A DNA stretch of 39,887 nt from positions 1-39,887 of IMG/VR virus record IMGVR_UViG_3300025168_000212; one strand, 5' to 3'. This DNA is from a virus. This document shows, piece by piece, positions 15,107 through 38,824 of the stretch. The notes under the pieces were generated by a model. That model made no database searches. It was not told the origin of the DNA and worked only from the letters and a program-made list of their open reading frames with translations. The position numbers and the translations under genes were made by a program. How positions within the stretch are numbered: the stretch's first letter is position 1; the number at the start of each line of letters is the position of its first letter.

Positions 15107-15152
15107 ACTCGCCTCCAATCAAAAGCATACACTTCATCTAACACAAAAAAAA

Positions 15153-15184
15153 GCCCCCGACCGCACAGAGACACGACCGGAGGC
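15153..15184 (-). terminator. Intrinsic terminator after the RusA-like gene
   Basis: On the minus strand an 11-bp stem (three G-T pairs) joins 15174-15184 to 15153-15163 around a 10-base loop and is followed by eight T residues (15145-15152). It ends the methyltransferase-to-RusA unit and separates it from the structural genes. The 156-base gap 15119-15274 holds nothing else I can identify; a late promoter must lie between the T run and 15106 or readthrough must occur. Confidence 0.88.
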
Positions 15185-15274
15185 AAGAGAAACAACACTA
15201 ATGTGAAGGCTGAAATACTTTTATCGATAGATACGACACCACTCGTAATCTAACAGCACCCCAGCAAACTCAGA

Positions 15275-15721
15275 CTACTCCGATGGACCCTCACAGTCAA
15301 TAGATGTCAACACAACCTCTACACATGGACCCTCACTCTTAGACGCATACACGGACTTGGCTGATAACAATACAACCTGTGTGTCATCTCGAATCACACC
15401 ACCCATCACCAGAGAATCCAGAACACTCTTACATACATTGTCTATGTCTGGCTTAGAACCATGCCACAACCTATGCTCTGAATCCTTCTTCCGTAACAAT
15501 CTCTTCGGTCTAGGAAATACAGCAGTAATCATCGCACGACATAACGAGTCACTCGGTGCAGACATCCATGCATTACGCATGATCAATGCACTACTTCTCT
15601 CCCAATCTGCAGTACGCTTCGGTGTGTATAACTGTACATAGCCTCCCATCGTCGTTGCCCTAGGTCTACCCTTACCAATCGGTGGCCCAGGTATCACACA
15701 ATCAAACTTCCATTCCTGCAT
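15275..15721 (-). CDS. rusA: RusA-like Holliday junction resolvase
   Basis: This 148-residue protein should cut branched DNA during recombination and before packaging. It shows the RusA pattern: an N-terminal beta strand with PGPPIGKGRPRAT (residues 11-23), the catalytic KPDIDN motif (90-95, Asp92 and Asp94) and a following RDDTQV (111-116) with the third acidic position, all in the spacing of the family. The ATG at 15721 is chosen because GGAGG lies 7 bases upstream. It overlaps the preceding gene by 20 bases. It fits with RecT and YqaJ at the far right of the window. Confidence 0.92.
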   Translation of the reverse strand: MQEWKFDCVIPGPPIGKGRPRATTMGGYVQLYTPKRTADWERSSALIMRNAWMSAPSDSLCRAMITAVFPRPKRLLRKKDSEHRLWHGSKPDIDNVCKSVLDSLVMGGVIRDDTQVVLLSAKSVYASKSEGPCVEVVLTSIDCEGPSE

Positions 15722-16079
15722 TGCCAACCTCCTGTATCAATGTCTTCAATGAATCTCGCAACTCATTCATGCTCTTCGGATAATCAACACCATCATGACG
15801 ACCCATAGATAAACAAACATCGTCTACCTTCACCATCAATATGTTCAACATACCCGGCCTACGTACAGCATCACTCAATGACTCAAACGCCCAAGGCATG
15901 TCCAGTTGAGATGGAACACTCTTCATCCACCACTCACAGTCGTACAACCATGTGTCCGAACTCAACGCTAATCTCGATAACAAATGATACCAATCACTTA
16001 TCGCTAATCGAAGATGCCTCTCTACATGACGACAACAAGTCTCTACTTTTTTGTTTGAATCGTCAGTAGCTACTTCCAC
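15702..16079 (-). CDS. Unrecognised protein (125 aa) upstream of RusA
   Basis: It starts with GTG at 16079, supported by GGAGG 6 bases upstream, and overlaps both neighbours. The sequence is Trp/Cys/His-rich in its first half (CCRHVERHLRLAISDWYHLL) and helical throughout. It is co-transcribed with the methyltransferase and resolvase. No motif is recognised. Confidence 0.65.
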   Translation of the reverse strand: MEVATDDSNKKVETCCRHVERHLRLAISDWYHLLSRLALSSDTWLYDCEWWMKSVPSQLDMPWAFESLSDAVRRPGMLNILMVKVDDVCLSMGRHDGVDYPKSMNELRDSLKTLIQEVGNAGMEV

Positions 16080-16987
16080 ATCCTACCTCCATAACCCTTC
16101 TTGAATCGCTGGAACCTCACCGGTCCTCCACGCTTCCACTCAGGCCACCATATACAACTCAAGTACCAGTCCATCTCATCAGGACTCACCGCTACCCACC
16201 TTGCACAGAAATGATCTCTAATGTGTCTCACTGAGAATGGAACAGTCTGTCCATCATCAATCATCTTGAAACATCGATCCCAAAACTCCTGATGCTTCAG
16301 AGCTCTGTACTTGTACATCTGTATAATACGACCGCTACCTACTCGATTCTTCAATGCAACTCGACGCATGTAAATCGTCTCAGCATGTCGAACACACTTT
16401 AAGAACTGAACTGTGTTCATCTTCCCATCACAATGCTCCATTGCATATCTATGCATTGTCTTAAATGCACACCATGATGCTGCTACCCTATATGGCTTAC
16501 ATGCATGCACCTGATGAATCGGTAGCATCGGACACAACTGCTCCATCAAGATTGTGAACGAATCACCCCAGTGCTGTCTCGCTACCACTAACGCACGACC
16601 CTGTGGATCAATGATCGCAAGCATAGTCTTCCTACGATGTACCTTCCACTTGTGACCTTCGATAGCTTCACGTCTAGCTTGTTCAATCTCTTCTTCATAG
16701 ATCGATACATCAACCTTGTATGAAGAGTACACCCTGTCACGCATCGGTCGTAACAAATCACAACGATCCTCCGTCAATCCAATACGACGACAGATCACAT
16801 CTCCTGGTACAAACCATGTCTTTGCTTTACCACGTGACTTCATCACCTTCTTGAAGATGAACTCATCATTGAATGATGCACCAATCGCTGTACGATACTG
16901 ATCAACATCATCACCATATATCGGCTTCTCATCTACTCCATTAACTCCAGTCAATGGATAGAACTGCTCTAAGACCATGCATTCCAT
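16070..16987 (-). CDS. Unrecognised basic protein (305 aa)
   Basis: The start at 16987 (MECMVLEQF) is chosen because its ATG overlaps the preceding stop (TAATG) and GGGAG lies 8 bases upstream; a longer frame to 17083 would overlap the upstream gene needlessly. The protein is basic, rich in Arg, His, Trp and Cys in the second half, ending KRGGPVRFQRFKKGYGGRMWK. A segment KTMLAIIDPQGRALVVARQH (about 145-164) looks like a beta hairpin core. It could bind nucleic acid. No family is recognised. Confidence 0.7.
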   Translation of the reverse strand: MECMVLEQFYPLTGVNGVDEKPIYGDDVDQYRTAIGASFNDEFIFKKVMKSRGKAKTWFVPGDVICRRIGLTEDRCDLLRPMRDRVYSSYKVDVSIYEEEIEQARREAIEGHKWKVHRRKTMLAIIDPQGRALVVARQHWGDSFTILMEQLCPMLPIHQVHACKPYRVAASWCAFKTMHRYAMEHCDGKMNTVQFLKCVRHAETIYMRRVALKNRVGSGRIIQMYKYRALKHQEFWDRCFKMIDDGQTVPFSVRHIRDHFCARWVAVSPDEMDWYLSCIWWPEWKRGGPVRFQRFKKGYGGRMWK

Positions 16988-17274
16988 TAGTTGTACTCCC
17001 CATCCTTCCATACCCAGTGAAATGGTGAGAACGTCATGAACCTTAACCACATGACACTCTCTCCAAAGTCGAACCTCGCCCATACTCCAAGATGTCCATC
17101 GTCATCCTCCGATGCCATTGCCTCACCTAGTGTAACAGATGGATGCTTGTCATCTAAGTATGCTGCCAATGCCAACCATGCTCCTTCAAAATACCATTCA
17201 GTATCTACAGAGAAGTCTATGCCTTCTACTGGAAACAACCCCAGTTCTTCTTCATCCTCTGTATCCACCATCAT
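16987..17274 (-). CDS. Unrecognised small acidic protein (95 aa)
   Basis: The ATG at 17274 overlaps the methyltransferase stop (ATGA), which decides this start over the upstream in-frame ATG at 17328. The protein is acidic and aromatic (EWYFEGAWLALAAYLDD, MTFSPFHWVWKDG). Its stop overlaps the next start. A small partner protein of the methyltransferase is possible but unsupported. Confidence 0.65.
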   Translation of the reverse strand: MMVDTEDEEELGLFPVEGIDFSVDTEWYFEGAWLALAAYLDDKHPSVTLGEAMASEDDDGHLGVWARFDFGESVMWLRFMTFSPFHWVWKDGEYN

Positions 17275-18230
17275 GAATCCATCGCCGTCATCACGCATCG
17301 ACCCAGTACCTCCGATACTATTGGACATACCGCATTACCAGCTTGCTTGTAGAAACTTGATTGTGTCTTACCTTGAAATGGATGATCATCTGGAAAGCCT
17401 TGAAGCTTTGCACACTCACGCCATGTAAGTCTACGACTGTCCTCATCAACAATGAATGGACCAGCATTACCTATCTGTATTGCAGCTACTGTTGTGCTTG
17501 GTTCGTTAGTAATGTCTCTGTATGTACGCTTACCTTCTGGCTCCCTTGGATTAGTACCACCACCTATGATTGTAGTGTTGATACCAAGAGCTGTACCTAT
17601 GCTGACCCATGGCTCCATAGATGCACCAAACATTCTCTGTTGATTTACTTTGTCTTTAGAGCAATGAGTCTTCTGTGGCCATGGTATTGGTCTCGGTCCT
17701 GCTACTAAGAACACTCTCTTCCTATGCTGTGCTACACCGAAGTCTGCAGCATTCAGCATCACAGTACCTAACCATTTAAACCTCTTCTTAAACTGTGGCT
17801 GTATCCATCCTTCCCAGTAACAACCTGCACAAGAGAATATGTCTGTTCGATCACAGTCAATATTATGGTACGTCATCCCTGGTACATTCTCACAGATGAC
17901 GTACTCTGGCCCCATGCCTCTACTGTGTAGATGATCAATGACATCGAGTGTCCATGGCCAACCATTACGATCATCCAATGCACCTTGTCTTTTACCTGCA
18001 TGACTGAATGCCTGGCATGGTGGTGATGCCCACATCAAGTCTACATGATTGAGATTGTCGTAGTGAATGAAGTGCCTGACATCACCATGAATACCTGGCA
18101 GTCCTGCTGCTACCAACGTAGATGCTGCATCCTCGTCCCACTCTACACAGAGATCATGATGAAACCCAGCATTGCGTAGACCAATAGATGCACCGCCTGC
18201 ACCTGCAAATAAGTCAATGGTTGTTCTCAT
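17271..18230 (-). CDS. C5 cytosine DNA methyltransferase
   Basis: From MRTTIDLFAGAGG the 319-residue enzyme shows the ordered motifs of m5C methyltransferases: I (DLFAGAGG, 6-13, S-adenosylmethionine binding), IV (SPPCQAF, catalytic Cys72), VI (ENVPG, 114-118), VIII (QHRKRVF, 168-174), and C-terminal IX/X (RRLTWRECAKLQGFP ... QAGNAV). The target-recognition region lies between VIII and IX. The start at 18230 places motif I at the normal distance; an ATG at 18254 is possible. The frame extends to 18482, but that part translates tandem repeats. It probably protects phage DNA from host restriction; no restriction enzyme is adjacent. Confidence 0.93.
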   Translation of the reverse strand: MRTTIDLFAGAGGASIGLRNAGFHHDLCVEWDEDAASTLVAAGLPGIHGDVRHFIHYDNLNHVDLMWASPPCQAFSHAGKRQGALDDRNGWPWTLDVIDHLHSRGMGPEYVICENVPGMTYHNIDCDRTDIFSCAGCYWEGWIQPQFKKRFKWLGTVMLNAADFGVAQHRKRVFLVAGPRPIPWPQKTHCSKDKVNQQRMFGASMEPWVSIGTALGINTTIIGGGTNPREPEGKRTYRDITNEPSTTVAAIQIGNAGPFIVDEDSRRLTWRECAKLQGFPDDHPFQGKTQSSFYKQAGNAVCPIVSEVLGRCVMTAMDS

Positions 18231-18270
18231 ACTGAACACAATATTGCACGACATCTTGATTTGCAACAAT

Positions 18271-18288
18271 GCCCTATCATTAGCAGGG
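18271..18288 (+). repeat. Isolated copy of the GCCCTATCA...GGG core
   Basis: GCCCTATCATTAGCAGGG matches the core of the intergenic elements at 19.3-22.7 kb (CCCT pairing with AGGG around an ATCA-containing loop), but it lacks the upstream hairpin and the CG tract. It lies upstream of the methyltransferase start, inside the divergent control region. Confidence 0.5.
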
Positions 18289-18370
18289 TACATCCCAAGA
18301 CTGAATCGGAAAGAAGGTCCGTAGGACTCCATTGTATTCCGCTGCACCCCTCCACCACCGATGGGACCGC

Positions 18371-18434
18371 TTGGGTCGTTGGGTCGTTGGGTGGTTGGGT
18401 TGTTGGGTGGCTGGGTTGTTGGGTGGTTGGGTCT
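18371..18434 (+). repeat. Eight tandem 8-bp repeats, consensus TTGGGTNG
   Basis: Eight adjacent units, each carrying GGG at the same place, give a run of eight G3 tracts separated by five bases on the plus strand. It lies in the 375-base gap between the divergent methyltransferase (18230) and the first rightward gene (18606). The pattern is compatible with initiator iterons or with G-quadruplex formation. Translation of the minus strand here gives only a Pro/Thr/Asn repeat with no similarity to methyltransferases. Confidence 0.95.
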
Positions 18435-18449
18435 GATAGGGAAACCGGT

Positions 18450-18485
18450 GGAGATGGGTTCCAATATGGAGATGGGAGTCAATAT
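18450..18485 (+). repeat. Two tandem 18-bp repeats in the divergent region
   Basis: GGAGATGGGTTCCAATAT (18450-18467) is followed at once by GGAGATGGGAGTCAATAT (18468-18485), identical at 15 of 18 positions. Together with the eight 8-bp repeats just upstream they form a repeat array between divergent transcription units, the usual architecture of a replication origin or regulator-binding region. Confidence 0.85.
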
Positions 18486-18546
18486 CGATATGTGTGTTCT
18501 CTTGACATTTCTCTGACATCCTGTTCACCCTGGAGCCTACAGAACG

Positions 18547-18555
18547 TGGTATAAA
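18547..18555 (+). promoter_or_regulatory. Extended -10 promoter for the first rightward gene
   Basis: TGGTATAAA fits an extended -10 element (TGnTATAAT). A weak -35-like TTCACC lies 20 bases upstream and a consensus TTGACA lies at 18502-18507, too far away for the same promoter. Transcription from here would start near 18562, after the GTG at 18561, which supports the downstream ATG. Confidence 0.4.
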
Positions 18556-18605
18556 TAGAAGTGCCGGGAACCAAACAAACAAACCCCGGCCACATGGAGA
18601 AACAA

Positions 18606-18827
18606 ATGGACAAAAAGCCAACCACAAAACCAGTGCAGCAACGAACAAACGGGGGGACCACCTACCAGCTATTCGAATGCGGAGAACTTTGGACTACTGG
18701 CGAATATGGGTATCATTGCGGATATGTGAGTAACCCCGAGAACATAGATTACGCGATTGACGTACATGAGGAAGAGATGAGAGTCCTCATGGCTCAAACG
18801 GCTGAAGAGGTTTTGTACTGCGAATAG
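18606..18827 (+). CDS. Unrecognised early protein (73 aa)
   Basis: The start at 18606 is preferred because GGAG lies 6 bases upstream; ATG 18594 and GTG 18561 are alternatives. The product has a Lys/Thr-rich N-terminus and an acidic C-terminus, with a central aromatic/Cys segment (FECGELWTTGEYGYHCGYV). As the first gene rightward of the repeat array it is likely among the earliest expressed. No function is assigned. Confidence 0.65.
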   Translation: MDKKPTTKPVQQRTNGGTTYQLFECGELWTTGEYGYHCGYVSNPENIDYAIDVHEEEMRVLMAQTAEEVLYCE

Positions 18828-18900
18828 GAAGGAACACGGTTTCGGGTCTCCGTTCAAAGGGCCCACTTTCAAACCACAAACAAAAAATGGAGAAACCACG

Positions 18901-19338
18901 ATGGGAAACTTTGAAGAACGATTCAATAAACTGGAGAAGATGGTATCGGAACTCTGCACCGCTGCAGAAGAACCGTCCTGGGATGAGTCAGACCAGGATC
19001 ACCAGCGTATTGAATACGAGCGAAGACAATCAGAAAGCTCGGACTATCCAACGTCCGATGAACTTCGGAAGACTGAACAGGTGTTCAATGCATGGAGCAA
19101 CGCACTTCTCACCGCGCCGACCGACAAAGAAGGCATCCGCCTAACGGAAGATACGATGAGTCTTCAGGACTATGAGTTTGAGATTGATGTCGAAGGTACA
19201 ACCGTCTACATCACAAGAGACATTGAGGCTGACAACGCATCCGCTGTCCTACAGTACACCGATGTAGTTCATTGCATGTCGGAGATTGAACTTCGACGAT
19301 TGCTGAAGTGGGTCGAATATAGCCTCTCGAAGAAATAG
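18901..19338 (+). CDS. Unrecognised acidic early protein (145 aa)
   Basis: The protein has an N-terminal coiled-coil-like helix (FEERFNKLEKMVSELCTAAEE), a charged linker and a C-terminal part with beta strands (YEFEIDVEGTTVYITRDIEA). GGAG lies 8 bases before the ATG in the leader type shared by this region. Small acidic early proteins of phages often bind host proteins or mimic DNA, but nothing here proves that. Confidence 0.7.
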   Translation: MGNFEERFNKLEKMVSELCTAAEEPSWDESDQDHQRIEYERRQSESSDYPTSDELRKTEQVFNAWSNALLTAPTDKEGIRLTEDTMSLQDYEFEIDVEGTTVYITRDIEADNASAVLQYTDVVHCMSEIELRRLLKWVEYSLSKK

Positions 19339-19348
19339 CCAAACAACC

Positions 19349-19420
19349 GACCGCCACCCTTCGGGGTGGCGGTCCCCTGGAGCCCTATCACAGAAGGGAG
19401 CGCACGCGCACGCGCACGCA
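19349..19420 (+). repeat. Intergenic hairpin/CG-tract element, copy 1
   Basis: A perfect 11-bp stem capped by TTCG (19349-19374) is followed by GCCCTATCA at 19382, a CCCT/AGGG mini-hairpin, GAGCGCACGCGC and further CG/CA steps to 19420. There is no T tract, so it is not a standard terminator. It separates the 145-aa gene from the next promoter. Confidence 0.85.
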
Positions 19421-19438
19421 TAATCACACACAAAAACG

Positions 19439-19467
19439 TTGACACGCAGCAAACAGTAGACTAAGTA
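19439..19467 (+). promoter_or_regulatory. Possible sigma70-like promoter for the 214-aa gene
   Basis: TTGACA at 19439-19444 is a perfect -35 box. The hexamer at 17-base spacing (TAAGTA) is poor; a better -10-like TAGACT occurs twice at 12- and 21-base spacing. The second TAGACT is followed by ACAG exactly as in the promoter at 25602. The box assignment is therefore uncertain. Confidence 0.4.
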
Positions 19468-19506
19468 GACTACAGGTGAATCAACCCCGCAAAATGGAAA
19501 AACCAC

Positions 19507-20151
19507 ATGACCACCAAAACCAAACAACTCACAAACTCGGTAGACAATGCCCACGGGCGATTTGCCCACATTCACGGATACATCGACAAAACGGGCAAGC
19601 GTTCAAAGATTGTAGAGATTCGAGTCGGGGCTTCTCACGGCTATCAACTGGAGCAGGCGATAGCCCGCGCGGATATGCTGAACGAAGAAGCTATGGCAGA
19701 AAAGTATGGCATCAATATCACAGAGGCACAGAAGGCGATAGCCCGCAAAATGGAATCATGGAACCGTAGCCTCGAAGGCACACAGAAAAAACGCGCGGAC
19801 CACACAACGACACTCGGAGCAACGAAGACAGGTATCGGGGTCGTCAAGTTAGACAAACATCAAACCAGTATCATCATATCCGGCTACAAGTTGTGGGTGA
19901 AGTATGACGAAGAGACCCTACCCGTCAACGATAGTGCGGACGGACACAAGCGGTTCAAGCGTCACCTTGACAGCTACGTCGCATATCGGAACTACACCCT
20001 GAACCCGTTCGGTGCTGCAGTCAATGCCCCCGATACAGGTATTGGACCCGTGCAATACGGTCCGAACTTCGAGAAGGTATCCATCCAAGGTCTAACCTTG
20101 AACCCTTTGGACATATTCTCCATGCTGGAAGAGCTACGCACAGCAGCGTAA
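19507..20151 (+). CDS. Unrecognised early protein (214 aa)
   Basis: The product is basic in its first half, with two related helices (QLEQAIARADMLNEE near 48-62 and TEAQKAIARKMESWN near 72-86), and becomes beta-rich after residue 110. The ATG lies in the ACCAC leader shared by neighbouring genes. It is followed directly by an intrinsic terminator at 20162, so it forms a single-gene unit. No family is recognised. Confidence 0.7.
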   Translation: MTTKTKQLTNSVDNAHGRFAHIHGYIDKTGKRSKIVEIRVGASHGYQLEQAIARADMLNEEAMAEKYGINITEAQKAIARKMESWNRSLEGTQKKRADHTTTLGATKTGIGVVKLDKHQTSIIISGYKLWVKYDEETLPVNDSADGHKRFKRHLDSYVAYRNYTLNPFGAAVNAPDTGIGPVQYGPNFEKVSIQGLTLNPLDIFSMLEELRTAA

Positions 20152-20161
20152 ATATCCAGTC

Positions 20162-20198
20162 GGGTCGGTGGTGGTGGTTTGCCACCGGCCCATTTTTT
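20162..20198 (+). terminator. Intrinsic terminator after the 214-aa gene
   Basis: A 10-bp stem (GGGTCGGTGG at 20162-20171 with CCACCGGCCC at 20182-20191, one G-T pair) encloses a 10-base loop and is followed by ATTTTTT. It lies 11 bases after the stop codon. The T run merges directly into the leader of the next gene with no visible promoter between, so it may act as an attenuator. Confidence 0.85.
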
Positions 20199-20224
20199 AC
20201 ACCACAAACAAGAGAGCACTACAA

Positions 20225-20629
20225 ATGAACACTTTACACGAAATGATATCTACAATCGGAACCGATGCCATGAGTCGATACGATTTCAGCCAAACCAGGA
20301 CCCGAGACGATGGTTCTAAAATAGACGACTACTTCACTATGGAGGGTAGCCGATACACCTTCGACGGGCTTTTATCTTCAGTTGAAGGCTGGGAACAATT
20401 CGATACAAATCAAGACAGACACGGCATCTTTGGGATTTGGATTAATCGAGATAAGTCCATGACTGTTACCTATGTTGAGGGTGAGCTACAAGTCAAGTAT
20501 GAGATACCAGACATGGATATAGAATATCAATCACTTGTCGATTACCATGGACCTCCACCGCCTGCATTTACTGTCTACGATGCAGACGGGACCGTAACAG
20601 AGCACTACTCGAGACCACTCCATGGATAG
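20225..20629 (+). CDS. Unrecognised acidic early protein (134 aa)
   Basis: The ATG at 20225 follows a leader (CACCACAAACAAGAGAGC) shared with other early genes; a longer in-frame start at 20168 lies inside the terminator stem and is rejected. The protein is acidic, with alternating short strands and turns (YDFSQTRTRDDGSK, DGLLSSVEGWEQFDT, FTVYDADGTVTEHY). No motif is recognised. Its stop lies inside the start of the next small gene. Confidence 0.65.
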   Translation: MNTLHEMISTIGTDAMSRYDFSQTRTRDDGSKIDDYFTMEGSRYTFDGLLSSVEGWEQFDTNQDRHGIFGIWINRDKSMTVTYVEGELQVKYEIPDMDIEYQSLVDYHGPPPPAFTVYDADGTVTEHYSRPLHG

Positions 20630-20750
20630 ATTCATCATCGAACTGTCAACCGTCATCAATGGGCCCATGGGCCTGCTATGGATAATGGCTTGCACGTATA
20701 TCATCATAGGATGCTGCAGCATGCGAGCTCGCAAGTATCGTCACCCGTAA
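20622..20750 (+). CDS. Small single-pass membrane protein (42 aa)
   Basis: The ATG overlaps the end of the previous gene by 8 bases. The 42-residue product has a short polar N-terminus, one hydrophobic segment with Cys residues (GLLWIMACTYIIIGCCSM, about residues 17-34) and a basic C-terminus (RARKYRHP), a layout for N-out/C-in insertion. Tight coupling to its neighbour and the plausible membrane topology favour a real gene; a membrane-directed early function such as superinfection exclusion is a guess. Confidence 0.5.
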   Translation: MDRFIIELSTVINGPMGLLWIMACTYIIIGCCSMRARKYRHP

Positions 20751-20804
20751 AGGGTGGCGGTAGCCTGCAGCCCTATCAATGACAGGAGCGCACGCGCGCG
20801 CGCA
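20739..20804 (+). repeat. Intergenic hairpin/CG-tract element, copy 2
   Basis: An 8-bp stem with one G-T pair (20739-20746 with 20752-20759) and a GTAAA loop is followed by GCCCTATCA (20770), a CCT/AGG mini-hairpin and GAGCGCACGCGCGCGCGCAC. The stem starts within the last codons of the 42-aa gene. Confidence 0.85.
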
Positions 20805-20847
20805 CACCGATGGGCACTAAAATAAACACAAAAAAACACACCACACC

Positions 20848-20872
20848 GTTAACCTACGTGTTAACATACAGT
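20848..20872 (+). promoter_or_regulatory. Double GTTAAC site with -10-like TACAGT
   Basis: GTTAAC occurs at 20848-20853 and 20860-20865, followed one base later by TACAGT (20867-20872). GTTAAC also lies inside the -35/-10 spacer of the promoters at 21515 and 32812. No good -35 box is seen at 17 bases, so this may be a regulated promoter. It precedes the gene at 20912. Confidence 0.35.
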
Positions 20873-20911
20873 AACCCGCAAAGGGTTCAAACAACCAAGA
20901 GAACACCACAA

Positions 20912-21259
20912 ATGAAAGTATCACGCAAAACGATTGACCTTAAACTATCCATGCGACCGGGTGAGGATGACAAAACAGTCAAGGCATACCATGTGCTACC
21001 TGGACTATATGCCCACAAGGGCGGGTTTAATGACAGAGCATGGATGCTGACCCACCATAGCGGGTTGAGTGCATCATGCTGCTCATATAAACTCAAAGAG
21101 TGTAGACGAATAGCCGCGATAGTACAGGACATGCATCCTATCGACTGGACCCAAGAGGCGGGAAGCATCGATACAGCCATAGGCGGACTATGGGTCAAGG
21201 CATACATGGCGATAGAAAACGGGTACCCGTTGGACCGCACCGCCCTTGGGATGATGTAA
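20912..21259 (+). CDS. Unrecognised early protein (115 aa)
   Basis: The ATG at 20912 is preceded by an AAGAGAACACCACAA leader; an in-frame ATG at 20813 lies at the end of the CG tract and is rejected. The protein is rather hydrophobic for this region, with conserved-looking segments YHVLPGLYAHKGG and DTAIGGLWVKAYMAIENG. A Cys pair (SCCSYKLKEC) could bind metal. No family is recognised. Confidence 0.65.
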   Translation: MKVSRKTIDLKLSMRPGEDDKTVKAYHVLPGLYAHKGGFNDRAWMLTHHSGLSASCCSYKLKECRRIAAIVQDMHPIDWTQEAGSIDTAIGGLWVKAYMAIENGYPLDRTALGMM

Positions 21260-21402
21260 TGGAACGCGACAACGCTGAACTTATAGAGTTCCAACTATCC
21301 AGCCTACTGCTACTGACCTGGATAACTATCACGTCGATAGGCGAAGAGAATATCTACTTTACGACATGCGATGGCGCTCGCGGCTTTGTGAAGGTTCTAT
21401 GA
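21259..21402 (+). CDS. Small protein with a hydrophobic segment (47 aa)
   Basis: The ATG overlaps the preceding stop (TAATG). A short acidic N-terminus is followed by a hydrophobic stretch (LSSLLLLTWITITSIG, about residues 13-28) and a mixed C-terminus (NIYFTTCDGARGFVKVL). It may be membrane-associated. Evidence for the gene is the stop-start coupling and its intact frame up to the next repeat element. Confidence 0.5.
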   Translation: MERDNAELIEFQLSSLLLLTWITITSIGEENIYFTTCDGARGFVKVL

Positions 21403-21406
21403 AGCA

Positions 21407-21452
21407 GGCCCTTCGGGGCCCTATCAACGATGGGAGCGAACGCGCGCGCGCA
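21407..21452 (+). repeat. Intergenic hairpin/CG-tract element, copy 3
   Basis: GGCCC-TTCG-GGGCC (21407-21420) merges into GCCCTATCAACGATGGG (core at 21418), then AGCGAACGCGCGCGCGCAC. The tetraloop hairpin and the core share bases, so only one of the two hairpins can form at a time. Confidence 0.85.
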
Positions 21453-21514
21453 CCGATGCCAACCGCCCCAAAAACGGGGAGATCGGACCACACAAGATAA
21501 TCGAACAAAAATAC

Positions 21515-21543
21515 TTGACCCCGTTAACCTGACGCACTACACT
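21515..21543 (+). promoter_or_regulatory. Sigma70-like promoter for the Gp88-like gene
   Basis: TTGACC (21515-21520), a 17-base spacer containing GTTAAC, and TACACT (21538-21543). The expected transcript starts just before the ACACCACAAACAGAGAGAGC leader and the ATG at 21583. Confidence 0.65.
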
Positions 21544-21582
21544 GTATAAAGTTAATACACCACAAACAGAGAGAGCACCACA

Positions 21583-22212
21583 ATGAAACTTAAAGACGCA
21601 CGAACTGTCACCGGCCACAAATCCGGTCTCGGTAAACCTTCAAAGATGCCCGGCTATTCCACATCGATACCCGCGCAAGCGTGCAAGGTGGGCGCAAAGC
21701 TTGCAAAGGTGGCCGGGTCAGTATGCTCATCCTGCTATGCCATGAAGGGACACTATATGTTCCCAAGCGTCAAGGCAGGACTGCAACGAAGGCTTGACGC
21801 CTTGCACAACCCGCAATGGGTTGAAGGCATGACCACACTAGTGGGCCACTATACAGACCCGTCCGACCCATACTTCCGTATCCATGACAGCGGCGACTTC
21901 CAAAGCGTAGAACACTTGCTCAACTGGGTAGCCGTTGCGCGTGCGCTTCCATGGGTCAAGTTCTGGGCGCCATCTCGCGAGGTGGCCATGGTCAAGATGG
22001 CGCGCGCTATGGCGGGTGACTGGCCTTCAAACCTTGTTGTCCGGGTATCGGCGCCAATGATTGGCAAACCATTGGAGGTGTCCGGTCCAACGTCAAGCGT
22101 TGACGTTGACGGGGGCAATCAATGCCCAGCGCCTACGCAGGGCAACGAGTGCGGCGACTGTCGCGCGTGTTGGAACCCGACCGTTACCCGTGTCAACTAC
22201 CACAAACATTAA
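21583..22212 (+). CDS. Gp88-like phage protein
   Basis: This 209-residue protein matches my memory of the phage gene product 88 family: an N-terminal region with a Cys cluster (CSSCYAMKGHYMFPSVK, about residues 48-64, preceded by CKVG), a central RIHDSGDFQS motif (about 99-108) followed by an aromatic helix (LLNWVAVARALPWVKFW), and C-terminal cysteines (QCPAPTQGNECGDCRACW) that look like a zinc or iron-sulfur site. The biochemical function of the family is unknown to me. It has its own promoter and the shared early leader. A Cys-rich cluster plus an invariant H-D-S-G-D suggests an enzyme. Confidence 0.8.
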   Translation: MKLKDARTVTGHKSGLGKPSKMPGYSTSIPAQACKVGAKLAKVAGSVCSSCYAMKGHYMFPSVKAGLQRRLDALHNPQWVEGMTTLVGHYTDPSDPYFRIHDSGDFQSVEHLLNWVAVARALPWVKFWAPSREVAMVKMARAMAGDWPSNLVVRVSAPMIGKPLEVSGPTSSVDVDGGNQCPAPTQGNECGDCRACWNPTVTRVNYHKH

Positions 22213-22293
22213 CAACAAACGGGGGGGGCAACCCCCCACAGAGTACGCCACTAACTGGCGCAACCAAGTCTATAAATATTCAGGAGGTGCATA

Positions 22294-22542
22294 ATGCGCA
22301 AGATCCACTACACACACACCATCACACGAACGATAGAAATAGAGGTCGAGTGTGTTCTTTACCCGGACTATGGCGAAGCCGAAATACTCAAGGCCATTGA
22401 CTGTGAGACCGGTAAACCTATCGAGCTCGAAGACCACGAAGAGGAAGAGTGTGTCAACGATGGCGCCGCTGAGCACATGCAAGGCATGGCAGACGACGAA
22501 GCAGACCGCCGATACGAAGACCGCAAACTTGGAGATGACTGA
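22294..22542 (+). CDS. Unrecognised small acidic protein (82 aa)
   Basis: The ATG has a near-perfect AGGAGGT ribosome binding site 6 bases upstream. The first 40 residues look like two or three beta strands (HYTHTITRTIEIEVECVLYP) and the remainder is acidic (LEDHEEEECVNDGAAEHM). It sits between the Gp88-like gene and the fourth repeat element. No function is assigned. Confidence 0.7.
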   Translation: MRKIHYTHTITRTIEIEVECVLYPDYGEAEILKAIDCETGKPIELEDHEEEECVNDGAAEHMQGMADDEADRRYEDRKLGDD

Positions 22543-22614
22543 TAATGGGAATGGGCTGTACAGTCCTGGCGGCTGGGGGTTCGAATGTGGTGTTCTCCCC
22601 CCAGTCGCCTCTAC

Positions 22615-22677
22615 CCCCGAGCGAAAGCTCGGGGCGAATGGGCCCTATCAACAGACGGGCGCGCGCGCGCACGCGCC
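22615..22677 (+). repeat. Intergenic hairpin/CG-tract element, copy 4
   Basis: A perfect 8-bp stem with a GAAA tetraloop (22615-22634) is followed by GCCCTATCAACAGACGGGC (core at 22642) and alternating CG to 22677. Here the mini-hairpin is GCCC/GGGC rather than CCCT/AGGG, so the pairing shape is kept while the sequence changes. Confidence 0.85.
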
Positions 22678-22767
22678 AACACATGTCCACGAAAACAAAT
22701 CCAATCGTTCTGTACAATGAACGCCCAACTCGACAGGCCGGGTCGAGCAACCAACTAAGGAGACTAA

Positions 22768-23097
22768 GTGAGATCAATATCACTTGAACATTCAATGCAA
22801 ACATTGCAGATCATCGACACACCAATCGAAGGGTACATCATCGGAATCGTTGAGCTCAGGGAATCGCTTCCAACGGGTACGCCCTGCGAAAGCGAAGACT
22901 GGACACACGTACATTCGGCTGGCGGGTTCGGAACGCAAGACATGCTTCTCAATCTCTTCGCCCAAGTAAGCTCACACATCGGTGAGATTTGGGGAAGCGA
23001 TGACGCGAAGAAGCAGGCCATCGAAGAACTGCTCGGGAACGTGAGGCAAGACCTCACCGACGAACGACAAGTTGTTCTCGCCAAACAAACGGCGTAG
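22768..23097 (+). CDS. Unrecognised early protein (109 aa)
   Basis: The GTG start at 22768 has AGGAG 5 bases upstream, a stronger signal than the internal ATG. The product has an N-terminal beta-rich part (QTLQIIDTPIEGYIIGIVEL) and a C-terminal amphipathic helix pair. A TACAAT -10-like hexamer lies at 22712 without a clear -35. No family is recognised. Confidence 0.65.
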   Translation: MRSISLEHSMQTLQIIDTPIEGYIIGIVELRESLPTGTPCESEDWTHVHSAGGFGTQDMLLNLFAQVSSHIGEIWGSDDAKKQAIEELLGNVRQDLTDERQVVLAKQTA

Positions 23098-23441
23098 ACA
23101 CACATAGAGATGGGGGCTGGGTTCGCTCAACTGGCCTCAGTCCCCTCTCTCTCTACTCTTGGCCCGTTGCCTTGCAGCCCTACGCACCCGGCTGCGCTTG
23201 GGGACGCTGCCTGTTTTCGGGTTGTCGGAGCGCCTTTCAACCATGGCCTGCTCCATATGGTAGGTTCTATCTACAAAATGGGCGCGTCCACTTAAAGCTT
23301 GCATCCATACGGCCGGAGTGGCACTCGATATGATCGCCCGCACTAATCGTCCACCATGGGCATCCAGGTCATCAATCCACTCGTCAGCCCTTTGATTGTT
23401 GAGATATCGAGATATGCTGAAAAACTCATTAGGGAGAGAAA

Positions 23442-23897
23442 ATGTCTGATCATTACAGTGACGCGCCTCGTTCTTTACGTTGGAGTCGTTTGATATCAAA
23501 GAATCGTGAGATGCTTCGGGAGGTACCTGTTGGTAGTCTTGAGTCATTTGGTTCTCAGTTGGATGATCATTTAACTGGCCGTTGGATACGTAGCGAGGTT
23601 CAGGCTGGTGCTCTTCGTTTGTACTTACTTTATCGTGAGGTGGAGACATCATGTAATCGTTCTGGAGATTTGGCATCATTTTCGCGCGCTGTTTGTGAGG
23701 AGTCATTCATGGTGTTCAACTATTTGCGTGGAGGTAGTGGAAGGTCGCGGTACACATCTGATCAGTTGCATGGCTGGAGTTGTTTGCTCACCAAGAAGTG
23801 GTTGTCGGATGGTTACCAGGCGCATGTGATTCTTCATCCGAACGGTTCAATCGAGCCGATCGTATCCTCTATTGAGGTGGGGACACCTGATAAGTGA
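23442..23897 (+). CDS. Unrecognised protein (151 aa) with T-rich third codon positions
   Basis: AGGGAGAG lies just before the ATG. The product is basic and helical at the N-terminus (RSLRWSRLISKNREMLREV), with HGWSCLLTKKWLSDGYQAHVILHPNG near the end. Codon use favours CGT, GGT, TTG and TCT, unlike the C-ending codons of the genes on its left, so it may have been acquired separately. The 340 bases before it (23098-23441) hold no rightward gene; a leftward frame covers that stretch but has no credible start. Confidence 0.6.
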   Translation: MSDHYSDAPRSLRWSRLISKNREMLREVPVGSLESFGSQLDDHLTGRWIRSEVQAGALRLYLLYREVETSCNRSGDLASFSRAVCEESFMVFNYLRGGSGRSRYTSDQLHGWSCLLTKKWLSDGYQAHVILHPNGSIEPIVSSIEVGTPDK

Positions 23898-24128
23898 GGT
23901 TCAATGGGTCTTTTTTGGATCTAAAAATCTGCTGTCCCCCCTGGCCCCCTCTTCCCCTATAGAGTACCTTCATATCCATATTCTCTATTTCCATATTATC
24001 TATCTACTCTCTCTCCCATACATACTAAATAAGGTAGGGACAGTAGGGACATTAGAGCAGCACAGCGTTTTACCCGTCCCACAAGGGAGGCCAACCGTCC
24101 CCCTTAGCATCCCACAAAAGTCCTTGAA

Positions 24129-24147
24129 TCGGACAGAATATGTCCGA
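24129..24147 (+). promoter_or_regulatory. Palindromic operator TCGGACA-GAATA-TGTCCGA
   Basis: Perfect 7-bp arms around 5 bases. The inner GGACA-N5-TGTCC is identical in arms and spacing to the site at 36902-36916, which overlaps the promoter of a helix-turn-helix gene. It is centred 29 bases upstream of the TTGACA of the next promoter. There is no T tract, so a terminator is unlikely. Confidence 0.65.
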
Positions 24148-24166
24148 AAATACTTCAATGTTTACC

Positions 24167-24196
24167 TTGACACCAACGATTGAGTAGTTAGATAAT
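24167..24196 (+). promoter_or_regulatory. Sigma70-like promoter for the 24.3-kb cluster
   Basis: TTGACA (24167-24172), an 18-base spacer and GATAAT (24191-24196). It would drive the coupled small-gene cluster starting at 24274, with a leader of about 70 bases ending in AAAGAGAGAAACACC before the ATG. Confidence 0.6.
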
Positions 24197-24273
24197 GGTG
24201 GTAGGCACAGAGACTTATAACCCCCAAAAACACAAGATGTAGTGGAAACTATAAAAGCAAAGAGAGAAACACC

Positions 24274-24948
24274 ATGAGAAAACCAACACAAATCTACATC
24301 GACGACGGTGGCAAGGTCCACGTTTCCTACCCATGCGACTCATGCAGTGAGTGGGTCAACACAGAAGACTTCTGCGGGTATGGCGAGGACTACCTTTGCT
24401 GTGACTGCTTCGTCCCTGCGACCTTACCCGAGGATGACGAGGTGTGCCGAAAGATGGAAGCACGCGAGAAACTTGAAGAGATGTACATCCACGACTGGCT
24501 GATTATGCTCGTGGACTTCGACTGGACGCGAGACGTAAGAGTCGCCATCCACAAGGACGTGATCAATCCAGAACACTCCTGTGACGTGGATCACTCATCA
24601 CCGGACCCTGAAGATGACATCTCTCGGTTTGGTCCAGGCACCTGTGCCATGTCAATGCAAGAGATTAACGCTCTTCACCATGACGTGAACTCGGTATATT
24701 GCTTGGTCGATAGCGGAGTCATCGACGGCAAGAAGGCACACCTGATCTTCCAAGCACCTGACTTGCTGACTCAACCGAAGCTAATGGTTGAGTTGATGGA
24801 ATCGTTGGGCGAGTGCCTGCACGCTATCAAGATCATCCTTCGCAAAGATGGAAGTGATGAAGGATTTGATTTTCTCGACTTCATGCGTGGTGCTGCCAAG
24901 GTTGCCGAAGATAGGCTTGAAACTGCCGAACGACAAGGAGGTGAGTGA
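24274..24948 (+). CDS. Unrecognised protein (224 aa) with an N-terminal zinc-finger-like Cys cluster
   Basis: Residues 21-45 contain CDSC, then C34, then CCDC, a plausible zinc-binding knuckle. The rest is acidic and helical. The gene opens a cluster of overlapping small genes and ends with GGE-stop, a junction reused by its neighbours. The leader before the ATG matches that of the helicase gene at 28721. No function is known; regulation of host or phage gene expression is possible. Confidence 0.7.
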   Translation: MRKPTQIYIDDGGKVHVSYPCDSCSEWVNTEDFCGYGEDYLCCDCFVPATLPEDDEVCRKMEAREKLEEMYIHDWLIMLVDFDWTRDVRVAIHKDVINPEHSCDVDHSSPDPEDDISRFGPGTCAMSMQEINALHHDVNSVYCLVDSGVIDGKKAHLIFQAPDLLTQPKLMVELMESLGECLHAIKIILRKDGSDEGFDFLDFMRGAAKVAEDRLETAERQGGE

Positions 24949-25319
24949 TGCTTATCTATGTACTGGACGACGGAGAGACCTGGACACTAAGCGAGCCGAC
25001 CGCTGTGGCAATCACGCCAGAGCAACTGACCCGCATCGAAGGTGGAGAGAAGTTCTACCATGTCGTACCTGACTGGGACGAAAGGCCCGAGCCAACGTGC
25101 AACTGTGTGAAGTGTACGACTGCGAGGACTGCATCGAGGAAGATTGTCGAGGCCCAGAACAAAATGGAACCCAACGACTATGCGCTATGCGTTCACTGTG
25201 GCGCGTCACATCATATAGACGATGACCACCAGTGCGAAGAATGCGAAGAAGATGACTTCTTCATCAACGCGGGCATCGCTGCTCGGGAATCATTGAAAGC
25301 AAAGAGAGGTGAGGAATGA
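24948..25319 (+). CDS. Unrecognised zinc-ribbon protein (123 aa)
   Basis: The ATG overlaps the previous stop (TGATG) with GGAGGTGAG just upstream. The product has a beta-rich start (MLIYVLDDGETWTLSEP) and two cysteine pairs: C-N-C-V-K-C near 50-55, and CVHC with CEEC near 81-98, the latter spaced like a zinc ribbon with His residues between. The family is unknown. Confidence 0.65.
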   Translation: MLIYVLDDGETWTLSEPTAVAITPEQLTRIEGGEKFYHVVPDWDERPEPTCNCVKCTTARTASRKIVEAQNKMEPNDYALCVHCGASHHIDDDHQCEECEEDDFFINAGIAARESLKAKRGEE

Positions 25320-25549
25320 ATATGGATAAACTGGATAAAATACAAATCGACCCAAACAAAGCCAAGGATCTTTGGTACGCATTGTTCGGCTTATGCCATG
25401 CAGTTGAGCACTTTGGTCACACTGATGAGGTCAACACGCTCATCGACAAGACCACAGAGATGGGAGCTCAGGAGTTTGCTCGCAAGATCATATTCGAATC
25501 AATCGTCGATGAGGGTGAATCGCCTGACGATGGCGAGTGCGAAGAGTAA
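25316..25549 (+). CDS. Unrecognised small protein (77 aa)
   Basis: It overlaps the preceding gene by 4 bases (ATGA). The product is helical and acidic, with a central hydrophobic segment (AKDLWYALFGLCHAVEHFGH). It is the last gene before the promoter at 25579. No motif is recognised. Confidence 0.65.
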   Translation: MNMDKLDKIQIDPNKAKDLWYALFGLCHAVEHFGHTDEVNTLIDKTTEMGAQEFARKIIFESIVDEGESPDDGECEE

Positions 25550-25578
25550 TGGAACACGATGAAGCGCTGGATAACGCC

Positions 25579-25607
25579 TTGACCTATTATCGTTAATCAC
25601 TTAGACT
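25579..25607 (+). promoter_or_regulatory. Sigma70-like promoter for the 25.6-kb genes
   Basis: TTGACC (25579-25584), a 17-base spacer containing GTTAAT, and TAGACT (25602-25607), followed by ACAGTACACCAAACACAGAGG and the ATG at 25635. The arrangement matches those at 21515 and 32812. Confidence 0.6.
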
Positions 25608-25634
25608 ACAGTACACCAAACACAGAGGATTACT

Positions 25635-26024
25635 ATGCCAATACGGACACTGGTGCTGCCACCTGAGATCGCCTTCACGGTCGATTGCGGTGGAGAAACA
25701 ATACCTATTTACCACTGCTATGAAGATGATGTCTTTGATGAACGCTGCGAGTACGTGTACACAGCAGACATCAAAGAGGGGATCAGGAATGGCGACACTG
25801 ATGCGTCATCGAGAAATAACTACTGGATAGACATAAGAGAAGTGTATGACATGGTTGAGCACTTGCTATCAGACTTTGAAAAAGAGCGTGTTGAGTTGTC
25901 ATTGTACTGGACCCCAAAGACTCATTCTTTAGTTTTGAGTCTTGCCATACAGAATGGTCTTGTTTCGTTTGATGACGAGGGACGGGTAACCATCCATGAA
26001 ATAAAGGAGGTATCCAATGGTTGA
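25635..26024 (+). CDS. Unrecognised protein (129 aa)
   Basis: The first half is beta-rich (IPIYHCYEDDVFDERCEYVYTADI) and the second half has a helix (VYDMVEHLLSDFEKERVELS) and a short winged segment (LVSFDDEGRVTIHEIKEV). It starts a coupled series after its own promoter. No family is recognised. Confidence 0.65.
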   Translation: MPIRTLVLPPEIAFTVDCGGETIPIYHCYEDDVFDERCEYVYTADIKEGIRNGDTDASSRNNYWIDIREVYDMVEHLLSDFEKERVELSLYWTPKTHSLVLSLAIQNGLVSFDDEGRVTIHEIKEVSNG

Positions 26025-26211
26025 TTTGTGGACACAGTTTCTTGAGTATGTAGACCAGAAAGACATACCGATGGCAGACGGTGACTGGTGCGAAGAGGCG
26101 CTGTCCTTTGCCGGTGGCAACATTACGGTTGCTTGCGCTCTGTTGAGCATGGTGAAGACAAGCAAGGCTGTTGACTCTCTGGTCAAGAGTTCTGTGCCTG
26201 GGGAGGCGTGA
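26017..26211 (+). CDS. Unrecognised small helical protein (64 aa)
   Basis: It overlaps the previous gene by 8 bases and has AAGGAGG before its ATG. Residues 20-55 form a helix-rich core (EEALSFAGGNITVACALLSMVK) that recalls a small helical bundle. Its stop overlaps the next start. No function is assigned. Confidence 0.6.
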   Translation: MVDLWTQFLEYVDQKDIPMADGDWCEEALSFAGGNITVACALLSMVKTSKAVDSLVKSSVPGEA

Positions 26212-26435
26212 TGCGACAAGTCACTAAAACATTCGAGCAGCAACTGGACGAACGCGAAGAAGCTAACCAACGGTTTGCTTTGGGCGACGATGGCTACCGC
26301 TTGTACAAGTCTGCACCTGACTTGTTGGATGCGTTGAAGTCCTTGCTTGCTGCATTCGACTCTGACTTCCATGACTTGGTGCTTGCAAAGATGAAAGCTC
26401 AAGCTGCCATCGCCAAGGCCAAAGGGGGTGAGTGA
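26211..26435 (+). CDS. Small phage protein with a YKSAPDLLDAL motif (74 aa)
   Basis: The ATG lies in a TGATG overlap. The segment LYKSAPDLLDALKSLLAAF with a C-terminal AAIAKAKGG closely resembles short proteins found in many phages and prophages ('AAPDLLEAL...AAIAKA'), all without known function. It ends with the GGE-stop junction used repeatedly in this cluster. Confidence 0.7.
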   Translation: MRQVTKTFEQQLDEREEANQRFALGDDGYRLYKSAPDLLDALKSLLAAFDSDFHDLVLAKMKAQAAIAKAKGGE

Positions 26436-26611
26436 TGCTCGGACCAGATTGGGAACGTGAGGTCGAGTACGAACCGGGCAAGGCCCATCGGTTCACAGAT
26501 ATGTGGGACCGCTGGTGTACTGAGTGTGCAGCGTCGAACGCTTCTATGCCCATAGATGAATACATTCGACGCGAGAAAAACGGATGGCCCGAAGACGAAG
26601 GAGGTGAGTGA
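26435..26611 (+). CDS. Unrecognised small protein (58 aa)
   Basis: It starts at an ATG in a TGATG overlap preceded by GGGGGTGAG. The product begins MLGPDWEREVEYEPGKAHRF, contains a Trp/Cys segment (MWDRWCTECAAS) and ends EDEGGE-stop; the stop overlaps the next start. Its intact frame and the same coupling sequence on both sides support a real gene. No function is assigned. Confidence 0.6.
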   Translation: MLGPDWEREVEYEPGKAHRFTDMWDRWCTECAASNASMPIDEYIRREKNGWPEDEGGE

Positions 26612-27093
26612 TGAACATATTTATATTAGATGAAAACCCGGTTCGTGCTGCCCGTATGCAGTGTGACCGGCATGTAGTCAAGATGACCCTTGAGACCGCT
26701 CAGATGCTATCTACAGTTATCAATGAGTTGGGTGGCCAGTCCCCTTACAAGACTGCCCATGTAAACCATCCATGCTCCGTATGGGCTCGGCAATCTGTCG
26801 AAAACTTCCGATGGCTGTACCGACACGGCATGGCTCTATCGCTTGAGTACACCAAGAGATATGGAAAGATACACAAGTCCGAGGCCGTCATACGGCAGAG
26901 CCTCGACGCCTTGCCAACTGTTTCAATGACATCCGGCGAGCGTACACCTTTTCCATTGTGTATGCCTGACAAGTACAAGAGTGACGATGCCGTTGAGTCT
27001 TACCGTAGATTCTACATAGGTGAGAAGTCACGGTTTGCCCAGTGGAACAAAACAACAGCGCCTCCTGCATGGTGGTCACAGGGAGTTGAGTGA
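26611..27093 (+). CDS. Conserved phage protein of the NIFxLDxNPxxAA...CDxHVVKM type (160 aa)
   Basis: I recognise the opening (MNIFILDENPVRAARMQCD followed by RHVVKMTLETAQMLST) and the central NHPCSVWARQS ... NFRWLY as a family common in cyanophages and other aquatic phages. Invariant-looking residues are Asp7, Cys19, Asp20, His22, His53, Cys55 and Trp58. The Cys/His/Asp pattern suggests metal binding or catalysis. I know of no demonstrated function. The ATG sits in a TGATG overlap after GGAGGTGAG. Confidence 0.75.
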   Translation: MNIFILDENPVRAARMQCDRHVVKMTLETAQMLSTVINELGGQSPYKTAHVNHPCSVWARQSVENFRWLYRHGMALSLEYTKRYGKIHKSEAVIRQSLDALPTVSMTSGERTPFPLCMPDKYKSDDAVESYRRFYIGEKSRFAQWNKTTAPPAWWSQGVE

Positions 27094-28640: not shown

Positions 28641-28720
28641 CGGTAGTTGAATAGATGCCTCACTCACACCACAACAATGTTACTCTACATTTAGAGAACA
28701 GAACCACAGAGAGAAACACC

Positions 28721-36983: not shown

Positions 36984-37940
36984 ATGAACCAACAAGAAAG
37001 AGATGCTTGGCTTAAAGAGCGCAAGAAAGGTCTCGGCGGAACCGATATCGCTTGCATTATGATGGCTGGAGCAGAACTTTCAGAAAAAATTGGTTCATTC
37101 GAGGGAAGCCAATTCAAGCTCTGGTCTGAAAAAACAGGGCTTTACGATACTGATGATTATGACGATGCAATTTTGATGCGTGGCCGAGTAATGGAAAAGT
37201 ATGTCTGTGAGTTTTATGAGCTCCACCTAGGGGAAGGGTGTACGCTTTGGGAAGAGGGACTGACATGGCACCCATCTCGGCCACGCATCTTTGGAACACC
37301 AGATAGGCTTGTAGAGCAAAATGGTGTTCGATTCGGAATGGATGCAAAGACTCGTAGATATAGGCGAGGGTGGGGCGAGTCTGGAACAACAGACGTTCCA
37401 CTAGATGTAGAGATCCAAATGCGTGTCTACATGGAAATATTCGATGCTCAATATTGGGACATCGCTACGCTTTTTAGTCTTGATGATTTCAGGGTCTATA
37501 GAATCGAACGAGACAAAGATCTTGGAAAGTCTATACTTGATGTAGCTGAGTCTTGGTGGGAGAAGCATGTTGATGGAGAGGTCCCGCCAGATGTAGACGC
37601 AACAGACGCATGCATGAAAGTGCTCGGATCATTAAACGCTCGGGTCAAGAGTGAAGAGTTGAGAGTTGCCACTACAGCCGAAAAAGACCTTCACGAAAAG
37701 ATTATTTCTGCTCGAATGGAATTGAAAGAGGCCGAGCAAAAGAAAAAAGAACTCGAGAACCTCTTGCGCGCCAAGATAGGTGACTCACTTGGAATATCAG
37801 GTGTTGCAACTTGGAAGGTTGGAAAACCACGAAAGGTATTCGACAAGATTTCTTTTAGAGAAAAGCATCCAGACATGTACAAAAAGTTTGTTAATGAAGT
37901 ACCAAGCACCAGAATTCTTCGCATCACAGAGGCAAAATGA
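36984..37940 (+). CDS. YqaJ-like viral exonuclease
   Basis: This 318-residue enzyme should resect DNA ends 5-prime to 3-prime to make single strands for RecT. It carries the lambda-exonuclease/YqaJ nuclease pattern: KKGLGGTDIACIM (14-26), RGRVMEKY with Glu71, FGTPDRL with Asp107, the MDAKT motif (Asp120, Lys122) and VEIQMRVYM with Gln145. A C-terminal coiled coil (about 225-265) is an addition. The stop overlaps the recT start by 4 bases. It has its own promoter at 36935. Confidence 0.93.
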   Translation: MNQQERDAWLKERKKGLGGTDIACIMMAGAELSEKIGSFEGSQFKLWSEKTGLYDTDDYDDAILMRGRVMEKYVCEFYELHLGEGCTLWEEGLTWHPSRPRIFGTPDRLVEQNGVRFGMDAKTRRYRRGWGESGTTDVPLDVEIQMRVYMEIFDAQYWDIATLFSLDDFRVYRIERDKDLGKSILDVAESWWEKHVDGEVPPDVDATDACMKVLGSLNARVKSEELRVATTAEKDLHEKIISARMELKEAEQKKKELENLLRAKIGDSLGISGVATWKVGKPRKVFDKISFREKHPDMYKKFVNEVPSTRILRITEAK

Positions 37941-38824
37941 CAACAGCACTAAGCACTAGAGACAAGGTCACTCAACTGAATGAGTACCTTGAAGGCAAGA
38001 AAGGCAGCTTGATTAAGATTGCCCCACAGGGAACCGATGTCGATCGGATTATCCGTGTCGCAATGTTTGAGGCCGTGAAGAACGAACGGCTCGTACAGTG
38101 CAGTCCATCGTCTGTCTATATGGCACTGGCTAAAGCGTGCGAACTGGACTTGGTCGCAGGTGGAGTATTGCACCGCGCTTCTTTGGTTCCAATGTGGGAC
38201 AAGAAAAGCAAGGGCTACAATGCAGAGCTTTGGATCGAATACACTGGCCTAATGGACCTTGTGAAGCGTTCTGGAGAAGTGGCTCACTTTAAAGCAGAAG
38301 TAGTCCACGATAACGATGAGTTTGAGCATTCCTTTGATCTCGAGAGCGGAGAGGTTCTACGACACAAGAAATGCCACGACAATCCTGGCAACTTGCTGCT
38401 TGCCTATGCAGTCTGCTTTTTCAAGGACGGACAACGCCAAGTAGAAGTCATGCGAAAGGATCAGATCAACAAGATCCGAAAGAGCTCTCGCAGCCCTGAT
38501 TCTGGCCCATGGTCACAGCACACAGAGGAAATGTGGCGCAAGACCGTCATTCGGCGCATCTGCAAGTACCTTCCGCTTACACCGAAGACTACAGCCGTTC
38601 TGCAACACGACATTCAATCTGACTTTGGAAATGCGATTGACATTGATATCATCGAACCAAATAATGTTACCGAACAGGACAACACAGAACAGCCAAATAA
38701 TGTTATTGATGTACAAGCAACCGAATCCAAGCCGAAGCCAAAGCGGAGTTCTAAGGTTAAGGATTTAGTTGAAAAAGCGAAGGCAAATAACCTTCCTGAA
38801 CCTGAAGAAGATTTCACCTCATAG
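37937..38824 (+). CDS. recT: RecT single-strand annealing protein
   Basis: The 295-residue protein shows the RecT pattern: CSPSSVYMALAKACELDL (about 55-72), a GGVLHRASLVPMWD segment, AELWIEYTGLMDLVKRSG (about 95-112), and ends its core with MWRKTVIRRICKYLPLTP (about 199-216). The C-terminal 70 residues are a disordered, acidic then basic tail. It anneals complementary strands exposed by the YqaJ exonuclease, the classical phage recombination pair, with SSB and RusA elsewhere in the window. Confidence 0.95.
   Translation: MTTALSTRDKVTQLNEYLEGKKGSLIKIAPQGTDVDRIIRVAMFEAVKNERLVQCSPSSVYMALAKACELDLVAGGVLHRASLVPMWDKKSKGYNAELWIEYTGLMDLVKRSGEVAHFKAEVVHDNDEFEHSFDLESGEVLRHKKCHDNPGNLLLAYAVCFFKDGQRQVEVMRKDQINKIRKSSRSPDSGPWSQHTEEMWRKTVIRRICKYLPLTPKTTAVLQHDIQSDFGNAIDIDIIEPNNVTEQDNTEQPNNVIDVQATESKPKPKRSSKVKDLVEKAKANNLPEPEEDFTS

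Follow-up and report, generated by a model that had tools for sequence, protein, structure and literature searches.

In T4-type phages, promoter early stem-loop (PeSL) cassettes place a stem-loop terminator and an early promoter between small early genes (Arbiol 2010 and Comeau 2014, as cited in PMC4503421). The gain and loss of small early genes by phages, with expression left intact, is still poorly understood, and the element described here bears on it. The element was analysed in a 39,887-base record of an uncultured virus, the whole of which is called the window below. It is like the T4 cassettes, as far as these are portrayed in that account, in that a stem-loop terminator and an early promoter are repeated between small early genes, and in that the genes found there vary among relatives. 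It is unlike them in that an invariant 9-mer and a G+C tract are added between terminator and promoter, in that the virus is probably of another type, and in that its junctions were not preferred breakpoints in a gene-adjacency control. The terminase of this virus is about 25-26% identical to the best phage matches and its capsid has remote matches only; the records are perhaps fragments.

Stoperators are short repeated sites in transcription regulation, and they offer a model for a boundary site that is bound by a repressor. The likeness of the present element to them is one of general description, and its repressor would be a candidate. The 13-bp stoperators of L5 and other cluster A mycobacteriophages are named in PMC3203893, which also deals with the start-associated sequences (SAS/ESAS) of cluster K mycobacteriophages; the SAS is GGGATAGGAGCCC and is proposed to act at the translation start. 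Like our element, SAS/ESAS are short conserved repeats, mostly in one orientation, beside many small genes, and their function is putative (PMC3203893). The SAS itself was rejected as an identity for the element, with 0 matches in the window when up to 2 mismatches were allowed.

Organization of the boundary element

The boundary signal between early gene units in this group of uncultured bacterial viruses is real, and it appears to be undescribed. From 5' to 3' it consists of a terminator hairpin, the sequence GCCCTATCA, a spacer of 3-13 nt that usually ends in GGG, and a mostly alternating G+C tract, 3' of which there is usually a sigma-70-type promoter and then the next early gene. The initial annotation had placed four copies of hairpin, core and CG/CA tract in the window, all of which were confirmed by direct reading, and all four cores lie on the + strand:

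19349..19374, + strand: copy 1 terminator-type hairpin, 11-bp stem, UUCG loop, 3' of gene 18901-19338; z -4.0
19382..19390, + strand: copy 1 core GCCCTATCA, invariant
19400..19422, + strand: copy 1 alternating CG/CA tract
19439..19444, + strand: TTGACA, probable -35 for gene 19507-20151, the next unit
20622..20750, + strand: small hydrophobic ORF of 42 amino acids ending in YRHP, with its stop codon inside the copy 2 hairpin loop
20737..20761, + strand: copy 2 hairpin, GUAAA loop; z -3.1
20770..20778, + strand: copy 2 core GCCCTATCA, invariant
20788..20807, + strand: copy 2 alternating tract
21407..21420, + strand: copy 3 short hairpin GGCCC-UUCG-GGGCC, its 3' arm overlapping the core; z 0.7 in a 50-nt fold, not significant
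21418..21426, + strand: copy 3 core GCCCTATCA, invariant
21440..21453, + strand: copy 3 alternating tract
21515..21543, + strand: copy 3 promoter TTGACC-17-TACACT, 5' of gene 21583-22212 (GP88 family)
22615..22634, + strand: copy 4 hairpin, GAAA loop; z -3.5
22642..22650, + strand: copy 4 core GCCCTATCA, invariant
22659..22676, + strand: copy 4 alternating tract

The -10 of the copy 1 promoter is weak in the window and better in a relative (L178:6981), and the product of the gene behind it (19507-20151) gave no match as a protein query. Copy 4 has a second, larger hairpin directly upstream (about 22571-22609). Between genes 19507-20151 and 20225-20629 there is a terminator of classical form, its T6 run included (20162-20191), without a core and with scant room for a promoter, which is possibly a partial terminator within an operon.

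Conservation and distribution of the element

The four window copies are part of a conserved set: 38 clear copies were found in 11 related uncultured virus contigs, and a profile search added one that is cut by a contig end (L174:14258-14289). The relatives were reached independently by a DNA pattern and by the DEAD-box helicase encoded at 28655-30154; L160, L161, L164 and L169 were added by further DNA patterns, and L073 by another search. The helicase-derived contigs form a sample that was not selected by the element, and all four of those reaching far enough upstream (L130, L135, L137 and L139) carry it. A copy at L178:14002 was left out of the 38, as it lies inside an apparent coding frame; this element-like sequence (L178:14000-14034) may be due to chance, or may be an element absorbed by a gene.

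The nine bases of GCCCTATCA are identical in 37/37 aligned copies, an invariance that should be read in the light of the eight-base core used for the copy search. Searching the same contigs with one mismatch in the core produced no convincing diverged copy. The related contigs contain 29 alternating tracts that are rich in G+C and 12 nt or longer. Of these, 26 are located at a core, and the three others include a copy truncated at a contig end and a tract immediately 5' of a core. The tract alternates in most copies, although not strictly so in every one (L176, L177 and L178).

A pattern with 20 specified bases was run against IMG/VR, and every match was an element-carrying contig. Reversed control patterns gave 0 matches in all related virus records, and their sole match was in a bacterial genome. 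Because of these pattern matches, the reversed controls and the number of tracts at a core, the element is not a product of chance. Four bacterial-genome matches, which look like coding sequence in unrelated contexts, were taken as chance, as were L181-L183, of which L182 lies within a CRISPR-like array. The final two viral scans yielded no new true member, and no phage record matched in a nucleotide search with window positions 15000-27000.

The conserved boundary, made up of a terminator, an invariant site and usually a promoter, is well supported by these data, and the idea that one element recurs in the gaps between transcription units is thus borne out. No consensus RNA pairing was detected in the core and tract of the 37 aligned copies, and because core and tract share no RNA structure, we consider that the separate invariant site formed by GCCCTATCA, the spacer and the G+C tract probably acts as DNA. 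The short second hairpin and its RNA covariation, proposed in the initial annotation, did not hold up, since the same alignment contained no consensus pair. In our preferred reading, to which we assign a probability of about 0.5, the element is a transcription-unit boundary that combines a terminator, a protein-binding or insulating DNA site and a promoter, the function of the core being inferred.

The upstream hairpin

The upstream hairpins are stronger than those of shuffled sequences, with a mean z of -2.5 and a z below -2 in 25 of 37 copies. It had been noted that no U-run follows them; this is correct for the window (+ strand) but not for several relatives, in which a run is present, and T-runs follow the hairpins of several L170, L172 and L179 copies (for instance, CCATTTTTTGCGCG 5' of the core). 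Differences between the stems of the four window copies had been taken as covariation, a view that fails because these hairpins are not orthologues of one another. Where hairpins of relatives are orthologous, compensatory changes do occur: C-G to U-A before gene family F07, G-U to U-G before F12 and, for the YRHP hairpin, A-U to G-C. Because relatives show U-runs and compensatory stem changes, the hairpin can be assigned to the upstream gene, and it is most simply, and with good support, read as the intrinsic terminator of that gene. As the well-supported first step of the mechanism that we propose, the hairpin would thus terminate the upstream gene, whose stop codon can fall inside the loop, an arrangement seen for the small hydrophobic ORF of copy 2 and also in L001 and L002/L178.

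The same structures raise the alternative that the whole element works as RNA, with the hairpin and a single-stranded CCCUAUCA serving as a signal for 3'-end stability, processing or antitermination. The constant orientation with respect to transcription, the position always 3' of a gene and the compensatory selection on the hairpin agree with this alternative, but core and tract have no common fold, no Rfam family matches the element (the only match being a tRNA at 30891-30963), inverted cores occur upstream of leftward genes, and a clear hairpin is missing in some copies. We therefore regard an RNA element as very unlikely. A clear promoter is likewise missing from some copies. It may be added that L174:11453-11525 contains two core-plus-tract units in direct tandem, a second hairpin being absent.

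Downstream promoters and the divergent control region

A strong sigma-70 promoter match is present downstream of 39% of the copies; shuffled sequences reach 1.5%, and randomly chosen places 2.6%. With hairpins of z below -2 in 25/37 copies and strong promoters at 39% versus 1.5-2.6%, the layout of a PeSL cassette is found here. According to the second and third steps of the proposed mechanism, GCCCTATCA, the spacer and the G+C tract form a separate, invariant site, as the sequences show, which probably works as DNA, and a host-type sigma-70 promoter would start the next unit, as is supported for many copies. The distance from core to -35 varies from 54 to about 100 nt and shows no helical phase, which argues against a fixed-position activator site; a fixed-phase activator site was rejected on this ground. 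Inspection also led us to reject a T7-like or N4-like phage promoter, given the variable spacing and variable hairpins, and an IHF site, as the second half of the consensus is absent. In L170, L172 and L179, the promoters are followed by different early genes with a similar promoter and leader; an inverted repeat, GTCC...GGAC, and CAGACGGA precede the start in this common leader. Start regions of the GGTGAGTGATG type are repeated at later genes of the window (24926, 26413 and 26589).

The array of units sits to the right of a divergent control region, and two features on either side of it may concern its regulation:

18434..18441, - strand: inverted core of the divergent control region (reads CCCTATCA on the - strand), CG tract absent
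23442..23897, + strand: conserved gene to the right of the array; a lambda-repressor-like fold is predicted for its product

Inverted cores are present in the divergent control region of six of the seven contigs covering it (the window and five relatives), and the CG tract is absent from them. The gene at 23442-23897 borders the array, beyond a convergent gene, in 10/10 contigs covering the place. The model of its product has a pLDDT of 73.6, and residues 46-142 of this model resemble many XRE/lambda-repressor-type helix-turn-helix structures with Z of 5-6; the best Foldseek E was 0.3, so that the regulator fold is modest. The product is therefore a candidate binder of the core in a suggestive sense only.

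These observations could mean that the core is nothing but a transcription operator, at which a virus regulator represses or activates the early promoters, the hairpin being an unrelated terminator. An operator would agree with the strong downstream promoters, the repressor-like neighbouring gene and the inverted cores found at the divergent control region; it would not agree with the variable, unphased distance to the -35, and the tract would be left unexplained. Moreover, the last element in L170, L172, L179, L173 and L174 lies 5' of the convergent gene without a clear promoter, and the common factor is therefore a unit boundary. An operator alone is thus an unlikely explanation. In the boundary reading that we prefer, a DNA-binding protein, probably virus-encoded and with the repressor-like gene 23442-23897 as its best candidate, would bind the core both at every boundary and in the divergent control region (step four). 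The G+C tract beside the core, being hard to melt or Z-prone, might then act as an insulator; each early unit would in this way be shielded from its neighbour, and the whole set could be switched together.

Some further features of the divergent region and of the window are worth recording. A tandem (TTGGGTGG)n array at 18363-18440, G-quadruplex-prone on the + strand, adjoins the inverted core, and a similar G-rich stretch adjoins that of L172 near 10238. In the divergent region of L175 (about 15450-15585), iteron-like 14-mer repeats resembling ATCTACTGAAGGGT adjoin the inverted core. The leftward genes next to the region include one for a C5-cytosine methylase (17271-18482, - strand). The cumulative GC skew of the window has its minimum at about 21-23 kb, which may be explained by gene orientation alone.

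Possible exchange of units between viruses

The initial annotation drew an analogy with the T4 cassettes, and the same element does connect different genes from one virus to another. The copy at L178:6981 is a mosaic: its upstream flank is that of window copy 2, its downstream flank that of window copy 1. What precedes the F07 gene likewise differs between L173, L174, L175 and the L170/L172/L179 group; one-sided flank homology is seen at many element pairs. The suggestion that the junctions are special recombination joints was not upheld: adjacency was lost at 18/50 element gaps versus 57/215 elsewhere (p = 0.22), and in a comparison of gene order the next neighbour differed at 39/71 elements versus 205/363 other places (p = 0.90). 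It should be noted that this adjacency control is based on automatic ORF calls and a small sample of non-independent relatives, because of which a modest rearrangement excess could be missed. Units do appear to be exchanged at the elements, with no preference for these sites in the control. Since preferred shuffling was tested for and not found, we do not class the element as a PeSL, in spite of its layout.

Similarity of spacer plus tract is higher within a virus (13.0) than between viruses (8.5), a difference reached by 0/5000 label shuffles; this within-virus likeness would fit either gene conversion or a shared trans-acting factor. Contig ends fall within 300 bp of an element in 5/10 contigs, compared with 0.6 expected (p = 5e-5), although they may reflect only the poor assembly of G+C hairpins. 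RecT was found in 12/12 records, and in the window its gene is part of an adjacent pair that is a possible means of exchange:

36984..38824, + strand: RecE-like exonuclease and RecT-like annealing protein genes

Taken together, the mosaic and one-sided flanks, the homogenised copies within a virus, the RecT of all 12 records and the contig ends might indicate a dedicated joint for cassette exchange, whose core and Z-prone CG tract would act as short homologies or breakage hotspots and whose main function would be PeSL-like, RecT-type shuffling. However, elements do not exceed other gaps in lost adjacency, the contig ends may be an assembly effect, and the common stretch is short, making a dedicated joint rather unlikely.

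In integron attC arrays, gene units follow one another head to tail, with a hairpin and a core that does not vary. A site-specific recombination site of this or of the REP type, served by an integrase or transposase so far unrecognised, would account for the head-to-tail units, the invariant core and the element that closes the array on its right side even without a promoter. Unlike in integrons, no integrase was found, tyrosine recombinases, serine recombinases and Y1 (RAYT) transposases each being found in 0/12 records, which are possibly incomplete, and most units here seem to have their own promoter; the 37 aligned copies have no conserved arms flanking the core. A site of this kind is extremely unlikely.

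Returning to the boundary reading, the fifth step of the mechanism would be an exchange of units between viruses by RecT-type homologous recombination, in which expression would be kept because all units end alike. In its furthest form, GCCCTATCA and the CG tract would represent a new class of phage genome punctuation, that is, a protein-bound site that insulates units and standardises their ends for plugging genes in and out, and that is conserved across an uncultured lineage; we put this forward as a tentative possibility, on the doubtful side. Both insulation and exchange are directly testable through the element, which is a compact, searchable signal: its invariant 9-mer shows where units end in an uncultured lineage, and it provides a handle for the annotation of early genes in environmental viruses.
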